Position numbers and translations under genes: made by a program. Source: Myxococcus fulvus (lineage in GTDB: Bacteria > Myxococcota > Myxococcia > Myxococcales > Myxococcaceae). Taken from it: DNA of 64,000 nt. Positions 12,424 to 47,603 of this stretch are shown piece by piece. The stretch covers positions 930,001 through 994,000 of the forward strand of contig NZ_FOIB01000002.1 in NCBI RefSeq assembly GCF_900111765.1, given 5' to 3'. Position 1 is the stretch's first letter. The number at the start of each line of letters is the position of its first letter. The notes under the pieces were generated by a model that was not told the DNA's origin, did not search any database, and saw nothing but the letters and a program-made list of their open reading frames with translations.

Positions 12424-14977
12424 GTCGCCCTCGCTGAAGGCCCAGCTCCAGGCCCGACGCAAGGCGCTCCGAGGCGAACCCGAGACACCGTCCCCTCCCA
12501 AGCGCCGCAAGCGGACGACCCCACGTGAGCGAGTCACCGGAGGCCCGCCGCCAATGGAGCGGCTGCGCGCGTGGTTCGCGTCGAAGGGCTGGACGCCCCA
12601 TGCGTTTCAAGAGGAGTCCTGGGCCGCGTACGCGAGAGGCGAGAGTGGGCTCATCCACGTCCCCACCGGCGCGGGGAAGACCTATGCCGCGTATCTCGGC
12701 CCGCTCGCGGACGTGGTGGAGCACAGCGAGACAGGGCTCCAGATTCTCTACGTGACGCCACTGCGCGCGGTATCGCGAGACGTGGAGCGGGCGCTGCTCG
12801 AACCCTTGAGCATCCTGGACACGGACCTGGACGTGGAGAGCCGCACCGGTGACACCTCATCCTCCGTGCGTCAACGTCAGCGCGAGCGGCTCCCCGAGGT
12901 GCTCATCACCACCCCGGAGTCCCTCTCCGTGATGCTGTCGAACGAGCGAGCACCGGAGCTGTTCTCCTCCCTGCGCGCCGTCATCGTCGACGAGTGGCAC
13001 GAGCTGCTCGGCTCCAAGCGGGGAACCCAGACGGAGCTCGCCCTGGCGCGGCTTCGTCACTTCGCGCCGCGACTTCGCACCTGGGCCCTGTCCGCGACGC
13101 TGGCCAACCTGGACGAGGCCGCGCGCCATGTCGTCGGCACCGGACACACGCCCACGCTCATCAGCGCGAACATGGAACGCCCCGTCGAAGTGGAGACACT
13201 GCTGCCGGAGACGGTCGACAGCTTCCCCTGGGCGGGGCACCTGGGCTTCACCATGCTGGCCGGCGTGGCCGCGAGGCTGGACCCGAAGCAGTCCACGCTC
13301 ATCTTCACCAACACACGCTCACAAGCGGAGCGCTGGTACGAGGGCCTCCGCTTCGCTCGCCCCGAGTGGGAACACCTGCTCGCCCTGCACCACGGCTCCA
13401 TCGACAAGGAAGAGCGCGAGCGCGTGGAGCGCGGCCTCAAGGACGGCACGCTGCGCTTCGTGGTGTGCACCTCGTCACTGGACCTCGGCGTGGACTTCGG
13501 CCCCGTGGAGCGCGTGGTCCAGGTGGGCAGTCCCAAGGGCATCGGCCGGACACTCCAGCGCGCGGGACGCGGAGCCCATCGTCCTGGCGCCACCTGCAAC
13601 ATCCTCTTCGTGCCCACGCACGCGCTGGAGCTGGTGGAGATGGCCGCCGCTCGCGACGCCCTCCAGCGCAAGGAGGTGGAGCCACGCCTTCCCCCCACCA
13701 AGCCCCTGGACGTGCTCGCGCAGCACCTCGTCACGTGCGCGCTCGGCGGCGGCTTCACCCGCGAGGCCCTGCGAGAGGAAGTCCGCAGCGCCACCGCCTA
13801 CGCCCGCCTCACCGACGAGGAGTTCGACTGGACGCTCACGCTGGTGCGCGAGGGCGGCCCCACGCTGAGCGCCTACCCCGAGTTCCGTCGCGTAGAGGAG
13901 CACGACGGCCGCTTCGTCGTGAAGGACACCCGCGTCGCGCGGCTGCACCGGCTCAACATCGGCACCATCGCCTCGGATGCGATGGTGGAGCTTCGCTACT
14001 GGACCGGGGGCCGCCTGGGCAGCGTGGAGGAGTCGTATGTCAGCCGCCTGCGCCCAGGAGACACCTTCCAGTTCGGCGGCAAGAAGCTCGAGTTCAACCG
14101 ACTTCAGGGGCTCACCGCGTACGTGCGTCCCGCGAAGACGAAGGTGACGCGAACCCCACGCTGGGGCGGAAGCCGACTGCCGCTGTCCACCTCCCTGGCG
14201 GCCGCGGTGCGACGCACGCTCGATGCCGCGCGCCACGGCGACGTCACTTCCGATGAGCTGGCCGCCGCGTGGCCCGTGTTGGAGACCCAGGAGAAGCTGT
14301 CCCGCATCCCCGCGGCGAACGCGGTGCTGGCGGAGCTGTGCCACACGCGCGACGGTCACCACCTCTTCCTCTACCCCTTCGAGGGCCGACGGGTGCACGA
14401 GGGCCTGGCCGCCCTGCTCGCCCTGAGACTGACGCGGCTGCAGAAGGCCACCTTCAGCGTGTCGGTGAACGACTACGGCCTGGAGCTCGTCACCCCCGCG
14501 CCCTTCCCCTTCGAGGAGGCGCTGCGCCCCGCGCTCTTCACGCGCGAGCATCTGGAGGAGGATGTGTTGGAGAGCGTCAACGTGGGCGAGCTGACGAAGC
14601 GCCAGTTCCGCGACATCGCCCGCGTCGCGGGGCTGGTGCTCCCCGGCCTCCCCGGAGCCCGCAAGTCCACGCGACAAGTACAGACGAGCGCTGCCCTCCT
14701 CCACGACGTCTTCGCCCGCCATGACCCCGGACACCTGCTGCTCGTCCAGGCCCGACGCGAGGTGCTCGAACAGCAATTCGAGCAGGGCCGCCTGGAGAAC
14801 GCCCTGGAGCGACTGGAGGCGGGCCCCGTGGAGCAGGTCCATGTCCGCAGGCCCACCCCCCTGGCCTTCCCCCTGGTCGTCGAGCGCATCAGCGCCAGCG
14901 TCTCCAATGAATCCCTGCTGGAGCGCGTGGAGCGAATGAAGGAGCGATGGACCCGCGACGATGCCAGGTCCGCGTAG
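12410..14977 (+). CDS. Ligase-associated DEXH-box helicase (Lhr-like)
   Basis: An 855-residue superfamily 2 helicase of the ligase-associated group (TIGR04121, related to Lhr). Walker A PTGAGKT has Lys90, the DEXH box is D194-E-W-H, and LSATLAN (motif III), CTSSLDLGVDFG and QRAGRGAHRPG (motif VI) follow. The last 400 residues match the Lhr-type winged-helix and accessory region. The ATG at 12410 has AAGGAG seven bases upstream and overlaps the ligase end by 14 bases. ATP-driven 3'-5' unwinding or translocation is known for Lhr relatives. The 3' end overlaps the PdeM gene by 31 bases. Confidence 0.92.
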   Translation: MPARRSPSLKAQLQARRKALRGEPETPSPPKRRKRTTPRERVTGGPPPMERLRAWFASKGWTPHAFQEESWAAYARGESGLIHVPTGAGKTYAAYLGPLADVVEHSETGLQILYVTPLRAVSRDVERALLEPLSILDTDLDVESRTGDTSSSVRQRQRERLPEVLITTPESLSVMLSNERAPELFSSLRAVIVDEWHELLGSKRGTQTELALARLRHFAPRLRTWALSATLANLDEAARHVVGTGHTPTLISANMERPVEVETLLPETVDSFPWAGHLGFTMLAGVAARLDPKQSTLIFTNTRSQAERWYEGLRFARPEWEHLLALHHGSIDKEERERVERGLKDGTLRFVVCTSSLDLGVDFGPVERVVQVGSPKGIGRTLQRAGRGAHRPGATCNILFVPTHALELVEMAAARDALQRKEVEPRLPPTKPLDVLAQHLVTCALGGGFTREALREEVRSATAYARLTDEEFDWTLTLVREGGPTLSAYPEFRRVEEHDGRFVVKDTRVARLHRLNIGTIASDAMVELRYWTGGRLGSVEESYVSRLRPGDTFQFGGKKLEFNRLQGLTAYVRPAKTKVTRTPRWGGSRLPLSTSLAAAVRRTLDAARHGDVTSDELAAAWPVLETQEKLSRIPAANAVLAELCHTRDGHHLFLYPFEGRRVHEGLAALLALRLTRLQKATFSVSVNDYGLELVTPAPFPFEEALRPALFTREHLEEDVLESVNVGELTKRQFRDIARVAGLVLPGLPGARKSTRQVQTSAALLHDVFARHDPGHLLLVQARREVLEQQFEQGRLENALERLEAGPVEQVHVRRPTPLAFPLVVERISASVSNESLLERVERMKERWTRDDARSA

Positions 14978-43844: not shown

Positions 43845-46067
43845 TTACTTGTGCGACGCGATGAACGCGATGCCCTGGTAGCCACCCTTCGCGCCGTAGA
43901 TCTCGATGTAGTACTTGCCGGCCGGCACGTTGATGAGGTTGCACACCTCGGACTGGTGCTCCTTCACGCTGCGGCAGTCGTAGTCGAACTTCGTCGGCGC
44001 CGAGCCGCGCTTCACGTAGATGTCCGGGTTGCCCTCGCCCTCACCCGTCTGGATGTACAGGCTGTTGATGCCGGAGCCAGGCTTACGCTCCGGAACCTCG
44101 ATGGTGTACACGTTCGAGGAGCCCGCCGCGCCGGAGAGGTTCTTCAGCGCCACGCCGGACTGCACGGGCACGTAGCCACCCTTCCAGGTCACCGTCAGCG
44201 TCACGCCGGAGAAGGTGCTGTAGGCGTTGAGCATGACGACCCAGCGGCCGTTGCTCGGCGTGGCGAACACGCAGGACTCGGCGTTGCCCGCGCGGTACGG
44301 ACGGCAGTCGTACAGGCTGGTGGTGGGGACGTTGTTGTAGCGAACGTACAGGTCCGCGTCGCCCGTGCCGCCGGCGATGGAGACGTTCAGGTCGTACGCA
44401 CCCTCCGGGACGTTGAACTCGTAGTACTTCTTCTGGCCGCTCGTGGAGCCGATGCCCGTGACAGGCACGTCCTTCTCGATGGGGGTCGTGTCCACGATGA
44501 TGGGCACGCCCACGCCCACGGCCTTCCAGGCGTTGGTCACGGAGGCAATCTCATCCGCCGTGTAGCCCAGCAGCGCGGCGGCCTGCTCGGTGGCGACCTT
44601 CGCGTCCTCGAACGTGGCGTCAGACTCGAGGATGGTGTTGTTCGCGCGGTAGAAGATCTGCGCGGCCTTCTCGATGCCGATGCCCGTCACGACGGTGGTG
44701 GTCTTGCCCGTCGGGTGCGTGCCACCCTGCGACAGCAGGTAGAACGCCAGGTTGGAGATACCCGAGCTGTAGTGCACGTCCACGCTGTCGTCGTAGTCGT
44801 GGAAGTAGTCGAGCGAGTCCCCGTCCTGCGTGGGGTTCGCCATGTAGCGCAGGGCGTCGTTCGGGATGTTCGGCGTCCACACGTCGTCGCCGACCAGCCA
44901 CGTGCGCGCGCTGACGACGTTGCCGTCGCCGTACCACTCGCACACCGCGCCGAAGATGTCGGAGAAGGACTCGTTCAGACCACCCGACTGGTTGTCGTAG
45001 ACGAGGTCGGAGGAGAACTCCGTCACGGCGTGCGTCAGCTCGTGCGCCGTCACGTCCAGCGAGTTCGCCAGGTTGCTGGCGTTCACGCCGTCGCCATCGC
45101 CGTACACCATCTGGGTACCGTTCCAGAAGGCGTTCACGTACGCGACGCGGTGGTGGACCGTGCTGACCAGCGTGGCGCCGGCGTTGTCGTACGAGTCACG
45201 ACCGAACAGCTCGCTGAAGCAGTCGTACACCGTGCCCAGGTGGTCGTAGTTGGTGTTGACGACCGGGTCGGCGACCTCGGGCTGACCCTCGGTGCGAACC
45301 ACCGCGCCAGGGAGCGTCGTGGTGTTGTTGCCGTTGTGCATCCGGCGGGCCAGGCCCTCCTTGATCTGCGGGTGGCGGGCAATCACGTCGCCGTTCGTCG
45401 CGTTGACCAGGACGACATCGCGCACGGGCGTCCCGTCGCGGCGCTCACCCGTCTGGATGAGCTTGTAGACGAGCACCAGCTCGTCGCCGTCACGGAAGTA
45501 GACCAGCTCGTGGCCGTCCTCGATCTTCAGGCCGTCGAACGTGGAGCGGTCCGCCTGCAGGGCGTCCTTCGCCACCGACACGTCCACGCTCGCCTTGGCC
45601 GCGGCCTTCAGGTCGCTGCGGGTGTTGGTGGACGCCGCGATGACCTTGCCACCGCGCGTGGTCAGGCGCAGCTGGCCGTACAGCACGGGGATGTTGTTGA
45701 CCTTCACGCCATAGATGACGTGGCCGTCACCCTGGCGGTCCGTGAACGTCTTCTTCAGGACCAGGTCCGCCGGGTTCAGGTTCAGCTGGGGCGCGATGAG
45801 CGCCGCCACCGGAGCCAGGTCCGCCTGACCCAGGGCGGAGAAGCCCGCGGCCGCCTGCGGTGCGGGGCCGAGGTCGCCGGTAATGAACTTGGCGACACCG
45901 GAGGAATCCGTGGCAACAACCTTCTTCCCGGTCAGCTGCAGGGCCGCCGCGCTCTTCGTCGCGGTGTCCTGGGGCTTGGCCTCGGGAGCAGGGGTGGACT
46001 CGTTGCAACCAACGAGGAAGGACAGCGCCGCTACACCAAGAACACCGCGTACTCGCTGATTCACCAT
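43845..46067 (-). CDS. M4-family (thermolysin-like) metalloprotease with two PPC domains
   Basis: A 740-residue secreted zinc protease. The N terminus is a lipoprotein-type signal (SFLVGC, Cys21). An FTP/PepSY propeptide occupies about residues 60-200. The catalytic domain has AHELTHAV (zinc ligands in HELTH, about residues 343-347), the third ligand Glu in GGLNESFSDIFG, and GISNLAFYLL near the active-site rim. Two PPC-type beta domains end the protein (about 530-610 and 640-740), each with a DADLYV- or NPDIYVK-type strand and a Cys pair. TAGGAGG precedes the ATG. It is a single gene with an AT-rich promoter region. Prey or matrix digestion is plausible for a myxobacterium. Confidence 0.92.
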   Translation of the reverse strand: MVNQRVRGVLGVAALSFLVGCNESTPAPEAKPQDTATKSAAALQLTGKKVVATDSSGVAKFITGDLGPAPQAAAGFSALGQADLAPVAALIAPQLNLNPADLVLKKTFTDRQGDGHVIYGVKVNNIPVLYGQLRLTTRGGKVIAASTNTRSDLKAAAKASVDVSVAKDALQADRSTFDGLKIEDGHELVYFRDGDELVLVYKLIQTGERRDGTPVRDVVLVNATNGDVIARHPQIKEGLARRMHNGNNTTTLPGAVVRTEGQPEVADPVVNTNYDHLGTVYDCFSELFGRDSYDNAGATLVSTVHHRVAYVNAFWNGTQMVYGDGDGVNASNLANSLDVTAHELTHAVTEFSSDLVYDNQSGGLNESFSDIFGAVCEWYGDGNVVSARTWLVGDDVWTPNIPNDALRYMANPTQDGDSLDYFHDYDDSVDVHYSSGISNLAFYLLSQGGTHPTGKTTTVVTGIGIEKAAQIFYRANNTILESDATFEDAKVATEQAAALLGYTADEIASVTNAWKAVGVGVPIIVDTTPIEKDVPVTGIGSTSGQKKYYEFNVPEGAYDLNVSIAGGTGDADLYVRYNNVPTTSLYDCRPYRAGNAESCVFATPSNGRWVVMLNAYSTFSGVTLTVTWKGGYVPVQSGVALKNLSGAAGSSNVYTIEVPERKPGSGINSLYIQTGEGEGNPDIYVKRGSAPTKFDYDCRSVKEHQSEVCNLINVPAGKYYIEIYGAKGGYQGIAFIASHK

Positions 46068-46360: not shown

Positions 46361-46523
46361 GGGAGGAAATCCGGCGTCCGAGTGGCGCGGCCATGATTTT
46401 CAGGCTCGTGCTCTACCGCTGAGCTATCTCCCGATGGAAGTCGGGAGAGCTGGAGTCGAACCAGCGCCCCCAAGCACCCAAGTGCGTGTCGGGCCACACC
46501 GGACGGACGCCGGAAATCCTCCC
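46361..46523 (-). ncRNA. Permuted tRNA-like structured RNA (Y-RNA-like or circularly permuted tRNA)
   Basis: Read on the minus strand, the 3' half of a tRNA comes before the 5' half. 3' half: anticodon-stem strand GCTTG (46475-46471), variable loop GGGGC, T arm GCTGG-TTCGACT-CCAGC (46465-46449), acceptor strand TCTCCCG (46448-46442), base A. After a 7-base spacer (46440-46434) the 5' half follows: acceptor CGGGAGA (46433-46427), TA, D arm GCTC-AGCGGTA-GAGC (46424-46410), A, anticodon stem CGAGC, loop CTGAAAA (46403-46397). Joined, these give a 72-base cloverleaf with all 21 stem positions paired (one G-U) and a GAA (Phe-type) anticodon. The outer ends, 46523-46504 and 46380-46361, pair at 18 of 20 positions. 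This geometry resembles the tRNA-like domain of bacterial Y RNAs. No Ro60 (TROVE) gene is in the window. Confidence 0.72.
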
Positions 46524-46625
46524 AGTGGACGCGGCCTCCTGGACGGGGCTGACAGCGGCCCGCGCGCCGAGTTGCTTTGCGGAAGCGGACGGGTGCGCGA
46601 GGCTGCCGCCCCGGGAGGAAGGTAC

Positions 46626-47603
46626 ATGCGCGCACTTCAGCTGCAGCGACTGGACGGACCCGACGGGCTGGCCTTGGTGGAGCTTCCCGAGCCCGAGGCG
46701 CAGGACGCGGTGCTCATCGACGTGGTGGCGGCGGGGGTGAGCTTCCCCGATTTGCTCCTGACGAAGGGGCAGTACCAGTTGAAGCCGCCCTTGCCCTTCG
46801 TGCCGGGCGTGGAGGTGGCGGGCGTGGTGCGCTCGGCGCCCGAGGGCGCGTCGGTGAAGGCGGGAGACCGGGTGATGGCCTTCAGCTTCGGGCTGGGGGG
46901 CTTCGCGGAGGTGGCGGCGATTCCCGCGGAGATGGTGTTCCGGATTCCTCGGCGCTGGAGCTTCGAGGCGGCTGCGGGCGTGGTGATGAACTACCACACG
47001 GCGCACTTCGCGCTGCACCGCCGGGGCCGGCTGAAGGCGGGCGAGACGGTGGTGGTGCACGGCGCCGCGGGCGGCGTGGGCACGGCGTCCATCCAGGTGG
47101 CGCGCGGTGCGGGCGCGCGCGTGGTGGCGGTGGTGAGCGACGAGCGCAAGGCGGAGGTGGCCCGCAAGGCGGGAGCGCACGAGGTGCTGCTGTCCTCGGG
47201 CCCCTGGCTCACGCAGCTCAAGGAGCTGACGGACGGCCTGGGCGCCAACGTGGTGTTGGACCCGGTGGGCGGGGACATCTTCGACAAGAGCCTCAAGGCG
47301 CTGGCCCCGGAGGGACGGCTGCTGGTGGTGGGCTTCGCCGGAGGCCGCATCCCCGAGGTGGCGGTGAACAAGCTGCTCTTGCGCAACATCGACGTCGTGG
47401 GCGTGGCGTGGGGCGGCTTCCTCATCCATGAGCCGTCGCTGACGCCCACCATCGCCAAGGACCTGGAGGCGATGGCGGACCAGGGTGTGCTCGAGCCCGT
47501 CGTCGGCCCCGTCTTCCCCCTGGAGCAGGGCGCGCAGGCGCTGCGCGAGCTGGACGCCCGGCGCGCGACCGGCAAGGTCGTCCTGCGCGTGCGCGAAGGC
47601 TGA
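46626..47603 (+). CDS. NADPH:quinone oxidoreductase (zinc-free medium-chain dehydrogenase)
   Basis: A 325-residue enzyme. The catalytic/substrate domain (residues 1-125) has the AGVSFPDLLLTKGQYQ and FVPGVEVAGVV segments of quinone oxidoreductases and lacks zinc ligands. The NADPH-binding Rossmann fold has HGAAGGVGTASIQVA at about residue 141. GGGAGGAAGG precedes the ATG at 46626. The reaction is reduction of quinones or enones with NADPH. It is a single gene ending at a 9-bp inverted repeat. The RNA candidate lies just upstream on the other strand. Confidence 0.9.
   Translation: MRALQLQRLDGPDGLALVELPEPEAQDAVLIDVVAAGVSFPDLLLTKGQYQLKPPLPFVPGVEVAGVVRSAPEGASVKAGDRVMAFSFGLGGFAEVAAIPAEMVFRIPRRWSFEAAAGVVMNYHTAHFALHRRGRLKAGETVVVHGAAGGVGTASIQVARGAGARVVAVVSDERKAEVARKAGAHEVLLSSGPWLTQLKELTDGLGANVVLDPVGGDIFDKSLKALAPEGRLLVVGFAGGRIPEVAVNKLLLRNIDVVGVAWGGFLIHEPSLTPTIAKDLEAMADQGVLEPVVGPVFPLEQGAQALRELDARRATGKVVLRVREG

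Follow-up and report, generated by a model that had tools for sequence, protein, structure and literature searches.

Bacterial Y RNAs are known as partners of Ro60. The Y RNA YrlA binds Rsr and PNPase and is modified by TruB/Dus, as described in passages of PMC8394870; its basal stem holds the ring protein Rsr, and its tRNA-like domain binds PNPase and steers this enzyme to structured RNA (passages of PMC8394870 and PMC4726728). According to a passage of PMC4726728, the loss of Ro60 orthologues lowers the amounts of Y RNAs. An excerpt of PMC7790460 also mentions the suggestion that YrlA acts as a competitive inhibitor of an anticodon nuclease. Reversed tRNA halves occur in circularly permuted tRNA genes, which excerpts of PMC3978253 report from six algae and one archaeon, with circularisation ascribed to a BHB motif and the tRNA-splicing endonuclease. 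Among the literature matches listed, no title or abstract opening concerns such RNAs in myxobacteria.

The window, a 64,000-nt stretch of Myxococcus fulvus DNA, encodes on its minus strand (46361-46523) a structured RNA of 163 nt with tRNA halves in reversed order and a long closing stem; this Y-RNA-like tRNA mimic, delimited by its sequence and fold, is presumably transcribed. Every element of the reversed halves that the original prediction had named is present at its position, and its closing stem was also recovered: 18 of the 20 outer positions pair, all 18 by Watson-Crick pairs. The minimum free energy of the RNA is -96.2 kcal/mol (z -7.5; 0 of 200 shuffles equally good). The neighbouring genes, mentioned for context only, encode an M4 metallopeptidase (43845-46067, minus strand, by domain scan) and a zinc-type alcohol dehydrogenase/quinone oxidoreductase (46626-47603, plus strand; Pfam on 46617-47603, start codon placed by eye).

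Read along the minus strand, the RNA has a two-helix frame supported by pairing and covariation. The 5' strand of helix 1, CCGGCGTCCG (46504-46513), pairs with the 3' strand CGGACGCCGG (46371-46380), and the 5' strand of helix 2 (46492-46500) with its 3' strand (46384-46392). Family alignments delimit two frame motifs: GACACGC (46484-46490), shortly 3' of helix 2, at whose site many relatives have UACACGC or UACAAGC, and CCACTCGG (46378-46385), which forms the ACUCGG side of the internal loop. The body enclosed by this frame comprises, in order, the 3' strand GCTTG of an anticodon-like stem (46471-46475), the T arm GCTGG-TTCGACT-CCAGC (46449-46465), the acceptor stem (46427-46448), the D arm GCTC-AGCGGTA-GAGC (46410-46424), and the 5' strand CGAGC of the anticodon-like stem (46404-46408), followed by CTGAAAA (anticodon half 46408-46397). 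Pairing and covariation support both arms and the anticodon-like stem, and fold and covariation support the acceptor stem, which is capped by a short hairpin loop and has no free 3' end. Such a looped acceptor end means that the RNA, as it stands, could not be charged.

In the window, ARAGORN called no tRNA, and no Rfam family reached its gathering score at the element; a tmRNA match to it was absent from both the Rfam and the ARAGORN results. In a permissive Rfam scan of 301 bases the best match was YrlA (RF02553), which covered the full model at 29.7 bits (E 1.1e-4), below the gathering score of 69 bits, and the second was tRNA (RF00005) at 20.4 bits, below its gathering score of 29. Nine copies on four other loci were scanned as well; four of them scored 46.8, 40.3, 38.0, and 27.8 bits against YrlA, and two exceeded the tRNA threshold (30.3 and 39.6 bits) when read unpermuted into the downstream sequence.

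The element is not a product of chance: when 61 genomes were searched at the nucleotide level, 15 of 26 genus-mates and one genome from a different genus proved to carry near full-length orthologues. In an alignment of 17 sequences that was built without structure, with the tested structure written from one row, 95.4% of the paired cells are paired. The original prediction had named uncompensated stem changes in relatives as evidence against it; what we found in these 17 orthologues was compensation, with both sides changed at 11 of 40 pairs. Shuffled alignments gave a mean of 6.8 such pairs, none of 500 reaching 11, and slid versions gave 1 to 3; the count of additional pair types by itself showed no excess (25 vs. 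24.6 in shuffled alignments).

The covariance search in other myxobacterial genomes that had been proposed together with the prediction revealed a whole family. A covariance model built from the 17 orthologues (R1), which matches the window copy at 46370-46514 with 157 bits, this copy being one of its training sequences, has matches in 87 of 195 genomes of the phylum (E 0.01) and in all 27 genomes of the genus, with two to seven matches apiece; the hosts named among the matches include Myxococcus, Pyxidicoccus, Hyalangium, and Archangium. When 97 matches (85 distinct) were aligned to the model, an alignment biased to the structure by construction, 39 of 40 pairs were changed on both sides, and the score was 0.421 vs. 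0.124 for shuffled alignments. In the same alignment, some members of which are Ro60-linked RNAs, reverse-strand matches (two), or weak matches from a tRNA array (two), the T arm, D arm, and acceptor pairs are intact in 95.9-99.5% of cells. Two other sub-threshold tRNA-like places of the M. fulvus genome (L102 and L103) gave no R1 match. Results of our analysis indicate that this is a conserved, structured RNA family common to myxobacteria.

The rejoined halves of the window copy form, as had been noticed originally, a cloverleaf with a GAA anticodon. Together with the algal and archaeal precedents, this would fit a circularly permuted tRNA-Phe(GAA) gene, the transcript of which is cut and joined into a working tRNA. 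The sequence (C/T)TGAA is in place at the anticodon position in 10 of the 17 orthologues; however, the remaining seven depart from this register, four of them by a T inserted before GAA. The anticodon position reads CTTGTCTTCGG in L049, CTAAAACG in L042, and TTAAAAG in L054, and the loops of paralogues, of 6-8 nt where a hairpin forms, differ from that of the window copy. Moreover, the genome has two ordinary tRNA-Phe(GAA) genes, and the tRNA-splicing endonuclease, which acts elsewhere together with a BHB motif in circularisation, is to our knowledge absent from bacteria. We therefore rejected a decoding role on the grounds of the incompletely kept GAA, the other paralogue loops, and the two normal genes, and the permuted tRNA gene, which the original prediction had offered as an alternative, is very improbable.

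The frame is the part of these RNAs that is common to the copies. It consists of helix 1, an internal loop, helix 2, and then a motif of the UACACGC/UACAAGC type on the 5' side and CCACUCGG on the 3' side, and the body between the frame strands varies among the copies. In the class represented by the window copy, an anticodon-like stem is formed from the two halves. Elsewhere the anticodon hairpin is complete and the tRNA is entered at the variable region, and some of these copies carry D arms of another type, TAGCCAAATGGTAAAGGC. Certain members have little or no tRNA body, namely, a 72-nt copy in L097 and the copy in L143.

These variants bear on the possibility that the RNAs are free decoys, that is, tRNA mimics that sequester or block an enzyme of tRNA cleavage or modification and have no tether role. 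The wide differences between bodies in which the T arm, D arm, and acceptor nevertheless stay paired would agree with such a role, as would the anticodon-nuclease inhibition suggested for YrlA in the excerpt of PMC7790460. However, it is the frame that copies with different bodies have in common, and a decoy would need the tRNA body that the copies in L097 and L143 nearly lack. Taken together, we regard free decoys as unlikely.

Several odd members of the family deserve a record. The 72-nt frame copy (L097:1412-1483), with hardly any body, adjoins a full copy. The third copies in two tandem arrays (L049:1422-1490 and L050:1686-1791) keep the tRNA-like body and have lost the frame motifs. A permuted tRNA-like RNA without frame motifs is present in genome G065 (L145:265-405), which has neither F1 (the protein described below) nor a TROVE match.

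In the genome of M. fulvus four copies were found: the window copy on contig C2, two copies on contig C15 (186905-187057 and 195522-195662), and one on C12. The first C15 copy has a fold z of -5.0 as a single sequence; for the second, z is -3.4, 1 of 200 shuffles is equally good, and the minimum free energy fold follows the model only partly. The C12 copy, found by means of the frame pattern, has a fold z of -5.6. An apparent remnant of an RNA copy, shortened as judged by eye and longer in relatives, lies in the same genome upstream of the phosphatase gene (L100, near 14226-14245), and its promoter motif is still present. Inverted-repeat ends, several copies, and tandem arrays are also features of mobile DNA hairpin elements (a MITE or repeat), which would not be RNA genes. 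Against such an origin, only four copies were found in this genome, the positions of copies recur between the same gene families, compensatory changes concern the body as well as the ends, and the copies have a promoter motif of their own. A mobile hairpin is thus hardly credible.

The relation of these RNAs to Y RNAs is indicated by their neighbours in genomes that have Ro60. A TROVE domain (Pfam PF05731) is encoded in 5 of the 195 phylum genomes, and at four of these five loci the TROVE gene has one or two R1 matches nearby, one of them partial. The five TROVE proteins match TROVE and vWA_Ro60, that of L106 falling slightly under the vWA_Ro60 cut-off. Against YrlA, the highest score of a Ro60-linked RNA is 65.9 bits (G149). 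In the Ro60-linked RNAs of L107, L108, and L151 the anchor contains GAAUGC and helix 2 is followed by CUACA; those of L105 and L106 are devoid of GAAUGC. Since anchors vary among the Ro60-linked Y RNAs themselves, a changed anchor alone is no proof of a changed partner, which weighs against reading the frame of our family in that way. A DNA pattern derived from the window family returned 13 stretches from 84,980 genomes, five of them outside Myxococcota; the TROVE scan covered four of these five (all except L123, from Verrucomicrobia), and in all four, from Actinoplanes (L128) and Verrucomicrobia (L119, L120, and L121), a TROVE gene lies within 0.5 kb of the RNA. The architecture, shared with RNAs beside Ro60 genes in and outside the phylum, is therefore that of bacterial Y RNAs.

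Two further observations concern these Ro60-associated loci. The Y RNAs of L119, L120, L121, L123, and L128 have a UACUUCG motif near the CUACA site of others, with two copies in L120 and L121. In the Ro60 genes of G135 and G149 (L111 and L112), the match crosses one TGA each, which suggests a broken gene or a sequencing error.

The resemblance to YrlA noticed in the original prediction thus holds for the topology, for the sub-threshold YrlA match, and for the retrieval of Ro60-adjacent RNAs by R1, but does not extend to the expected protein. The gene for a TROVE/Ro60 protein that was to be looked for in the full genome was not found by any of three profile searches (TROVE, vWA_Ro60, and the Ro60 profile A3) of the M. 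fulvus assembly, which is rated 100% complete in 42 contigs. With an architecture like that of YrlA but no Ro60 found in the genome, we call the RNA Y-RNA-like and do not file it as YrlA. It might in principle be an ordinary YrlA Y RNA of which the Ro60 gene was missed, owing to an assembly gap or extreme divergence, with F1 being unrelated. The common topology and the sub-threshold match would be accounted for in this way, and Pfam TROVE scores some real Ro60 proteins barely around its cut-off. Nevertheless, all three profiles are empty in this complete assembly, and Ro60 is encoded in only 3 of 96 genomes of the family (vWA_Ro60 and profile A3) vs. 27 of 27 genus genomes with the RNA, so that a missed Ro60 is improbable.

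The most likely protein partner of the RNA is F1, a hitherto undescribed protein roughly 590 residues long whose C-terminal vWA domain (Pfam VWA_2) contains a DxSGSM motif; we suggest it as the binding protein on the basis of co-occurrence and gene order. In M. fulvus, the F1 gene is located at about C15:195819-197582, approximately 155 nt after an RNA copy. A profile search revealed F1 in 76 of 195 genomes, the RNA is present in 87, and both are present in 74 (Fisher p 2.4e-37, a value that ignores kinship). A better argument comes from within one genus, in which genomes G137-G140 have neither the RNA nor F1, and G141-G143 have both. Two genomes had F1 without a listed RNA, G160 (85% complete) and G078, which belongs to another family. 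In the latter, whose F1 is 40% identical, a local search located an RNA at a distance of 2.2 kb from the F1 gene, which raises the number of F1 genomes with the RNA to 75 of 76; this RNA keeps UUACACGC and ACUCGG, with helix 1 changed on both sides. In the 30 best F1 loci, which come from close relatives, the RNA lies just upstream of F1 in all 30, and a second copy lies about 1 kb further in 28.

Some observations do not fit a tether held by F1 so readily. Among 20 deliberately diverse F1 loci, partly overlapping those already examined, the RNA is within the fetched flank in seven only; for 12 of the other 13 it is elsewhere in the genome, and in G160 none was found. The window copy and F1 are themselves on different contigs (C2 and C15). 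Thirteen genomes have an RNA match and no F1; 11 of these matches have E above 1e-4, the stronger ones being those in G065 (1.1e-7) and G109 (7.7e-5), and in G043 and G185 Ro60 is present. No F1 was found in a search of viral contigs and plasmids. Another candidate partner, a TROVE-like vWA protein (L068 and L069), was rejected: it gave the only TROVE signals, weak ones (E 0.2 and 0.33), in 2 of 27 genus genomes. This protein of two genus-mates has 610 residues and resembles TROVE and vWA proteins below the Pfam cut-offs (Pfam scan of L068).

F1 could also be a highly diverged Ro60, in which case the RNA would belong to a genuine Ro60-Y RNA particle, diverged too far for profiles to recognise it. 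This is a sub-case of a tether held by F1 and not exclusive of it. The size of F1 and the position of its vWA domain are similar to those of Ro60, and full-length F1 aligned with Ro60 in hhalign at probabilities of 96.3, 96.7, 97.2, and 95.6%, with colinear N-terminal columns. However, the vWA domain alone gives 95% and so supplies much of the score, and against one narrow Ro60 alignment the full-length protein reached only 6.8%. For the N-terminus, the hhalign probability was 6.5% against five Ro60 sequences, 48% when two TROVE-like relatives were added (score 39.0 vs. 27.1 for the highest of 20 shuffles), and 1.1% against the broadest Ro60 set (22.1 vs. 22.2 for the highest of 60 shuffles; controls with other proteins 10.3-18.6); these values speak against the F1 tether as well. 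No TROVE match is present in F1, in which Pfam yields vWA-type domains only, and a search of PDB profiles gave a convincing E-value for vWA only. We consider a diverged Ro60 possible, with the evidence leaning against it.

The locus that contains F1 recurs across genera with variations. Its order is a sigma-like gene (F0), an RNA, a gene of a calcineurin-like phosphatase (F2), another RNA, F1, F3, and a gene of a JAB protein. In G037, from another family, F1, an RNA array, and F0 are together, and F2 is elsewhere with an RNA of its own. F0 is a moderate match, with 29.3 of 24 bits for Pfam Sigma70_r2 (21.7 in G037) and 36.8 bits for NCBIfam sigma70-ECF, under the cut-off of 42.9. It is adjoined by a protein with the zf-HC2 domain (23.9 of 22.2 bits), a domain known from anti-sigma factors. 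The best match of F2 is bis(5'-nucleosyl)-tetraphosphatase (96.3 of 176 bits), followed by Pnkp phosphatase (78.9 of 750 bits); since all its matches are far under the cut-offs, a role of F2 in RNA-end repair is only a hint. None of five locus proteins scanned matched a PADLOC defence model.

Upstream of the window copy, on the minus strand, lies a putative promoter motif of the ECF-sigma type (46528-46553), composed of GTCAGC (46553-46548), a 16-nt spacer, and CGTC (46531-46528). It has one mismatch to the commonest form, GTCAGG, and transcription driven by it would start near 46520, close to the beginning of the closing stem. The pattern GTCAGS-N15-17-CGTC precedes 43 of 59 copies, including the window copy, by no more than 150 nt (mean of 0.15 and maximum of 2 in shuffled sequence), a count to be read with the facts that the copies were listed by hand, that the motif was first noticed in the same set, and that orthologues are not independent. 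Among 47 matches with spacers of 10-25 nt the spacer is exactly 16 in 32, and GTCAGG with spacers of 12-24 nt occurs in 34 of 59 upstream vs. 0 of 59 downstream stretches; a looser form of the motif was found in 34 of 59 upstream and also in 6 of 59 downstream stretches. The same motif precedes the F0 gene in all five loci tested, 165-170 nt from the ORF start. Such a motif before its own gene is expected of an autoregulated ECF sigma factor. As the RNA copies and the sigma gene share a promoter type, joint production of the RNAs in response to a signal is probable.

The regulon part of this explanation is weakened by the 16 of 59 copies from which the motif is missing, five of which are located in the F2-F1 interval, where transcription of F2 could include them, and by the genome-wide distribution of the exact pattern. 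GTCAGG-N16-CGTC occurs 18 times in the M. fulvus genome vs. 39 for the reversed control, that is, no enrichment; three of the 18 belong to the F0 gene and two RNA copies, and the window copy, with its GTCAGC, is not among them. Two exact patterns of this type lie 1 kb apart in the same genome, at C15:209258-209283 (L253) and C15:208305-208330 (L252), one about 34 nt before a tRNA-Gly(CCC)/tRNA-Gln(CTG) pair and the other before a small gene of no known function.

The explanation that we consider probable is that the RNA is a tether of the Y RNA type, held by F1 and belonging to the regulon of a putative ECF sigma factor. The two-helix basal frame with its near-invariant motifs would anchor a protein, most likely F1, and the body would present a tRNA look-alike with T arm, capped acceptor stem, and D arm. 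The RNAs may be produced together on a signal, perhaps stress, under the control of F0. By analogy with the machine formed by Rsr, Y RNA, and PNPase, the RNA might either hold F1 and an enzyme recognising tRNA elbows together or serve as a gate to an enzyme of this kind. More tentatively, and with the balance tipping slightly to the other side, we propose a second, Ro60-independent Y-RNA particle, in which a frame recognised by F1 carries interchangeable tRNA-like bodies and the whole set is made by a dedicated, autoregulated ECF sigma factor.

Were the latter true, one protein would be equipped with different tRNA mimics under stress. A large family without Ro60, tied to another vWA protein and probably to its own sigma factor, would mean that the tether is separable from Ro60. 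Myxococcus and its relatives would then offer a tractable host in which to ask what the mimicry is for, and the presence of varied bodies on a constant frame would make recruitment by the tRNA-like part testable through body swaps.

Among the known systems, the permuted tRNA genes of algae and the archaeon are similar to our RNA in the reversed order of the halves and in the hairpin-capped acceptor end, which is that of any unprocessed permuted precursor; they differ in that the anticodon here is not conserved throughout and that joining is unsupported here. The Salmonella rsr-yrlBA-rtcBA RNA-repair operon, as presented in excerpts of PMC7790460, likewise has Y RNA genes in a regulated locus. 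A phosphatase (F2, with its matches all far below cut-off) is nearby here as well; rtcBA was absent among the six locus proteins scanned, and the regulator gene alongside resembles that of an ECF sigma factor, not RtcR. With the Rsr-Y RNA-PNPase machine of Deinococcus (RYPER), described in passages of PMC8394870 and PMC4726728, our RNA would share the role of tethering an RNA-handling enzyme to a ring-shaped vWA protein, except that the candidate protein partner here is F1 and that recruitment of an enzyme is suggested by analogy. The similarity is closest to YrlA with Rsr/Ro60: in both, the two ends form a long basal stem, followed by an internal loop and a second helix with a CUA-type motif after it, and then by the T arm, the capped acceptor hairpin, and the D arm in that order, and the gene is often beside that of a vWA protein. 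The window RNA nevertheless scores under the family threshold in a genome in which Ro60 was not found, and in place of the YrlA consensus anchor (G)AAUGC, which the Ro60-linked RNAs of L107, L108, and L151 also have, it has CG(U/C)CCGGCC / CCACUCGG. Unlike YrlA, the family described here comprises many paralogues with a complete anticodon hairpin and entry at the variable region, and its copies are distributed over several separate loci.
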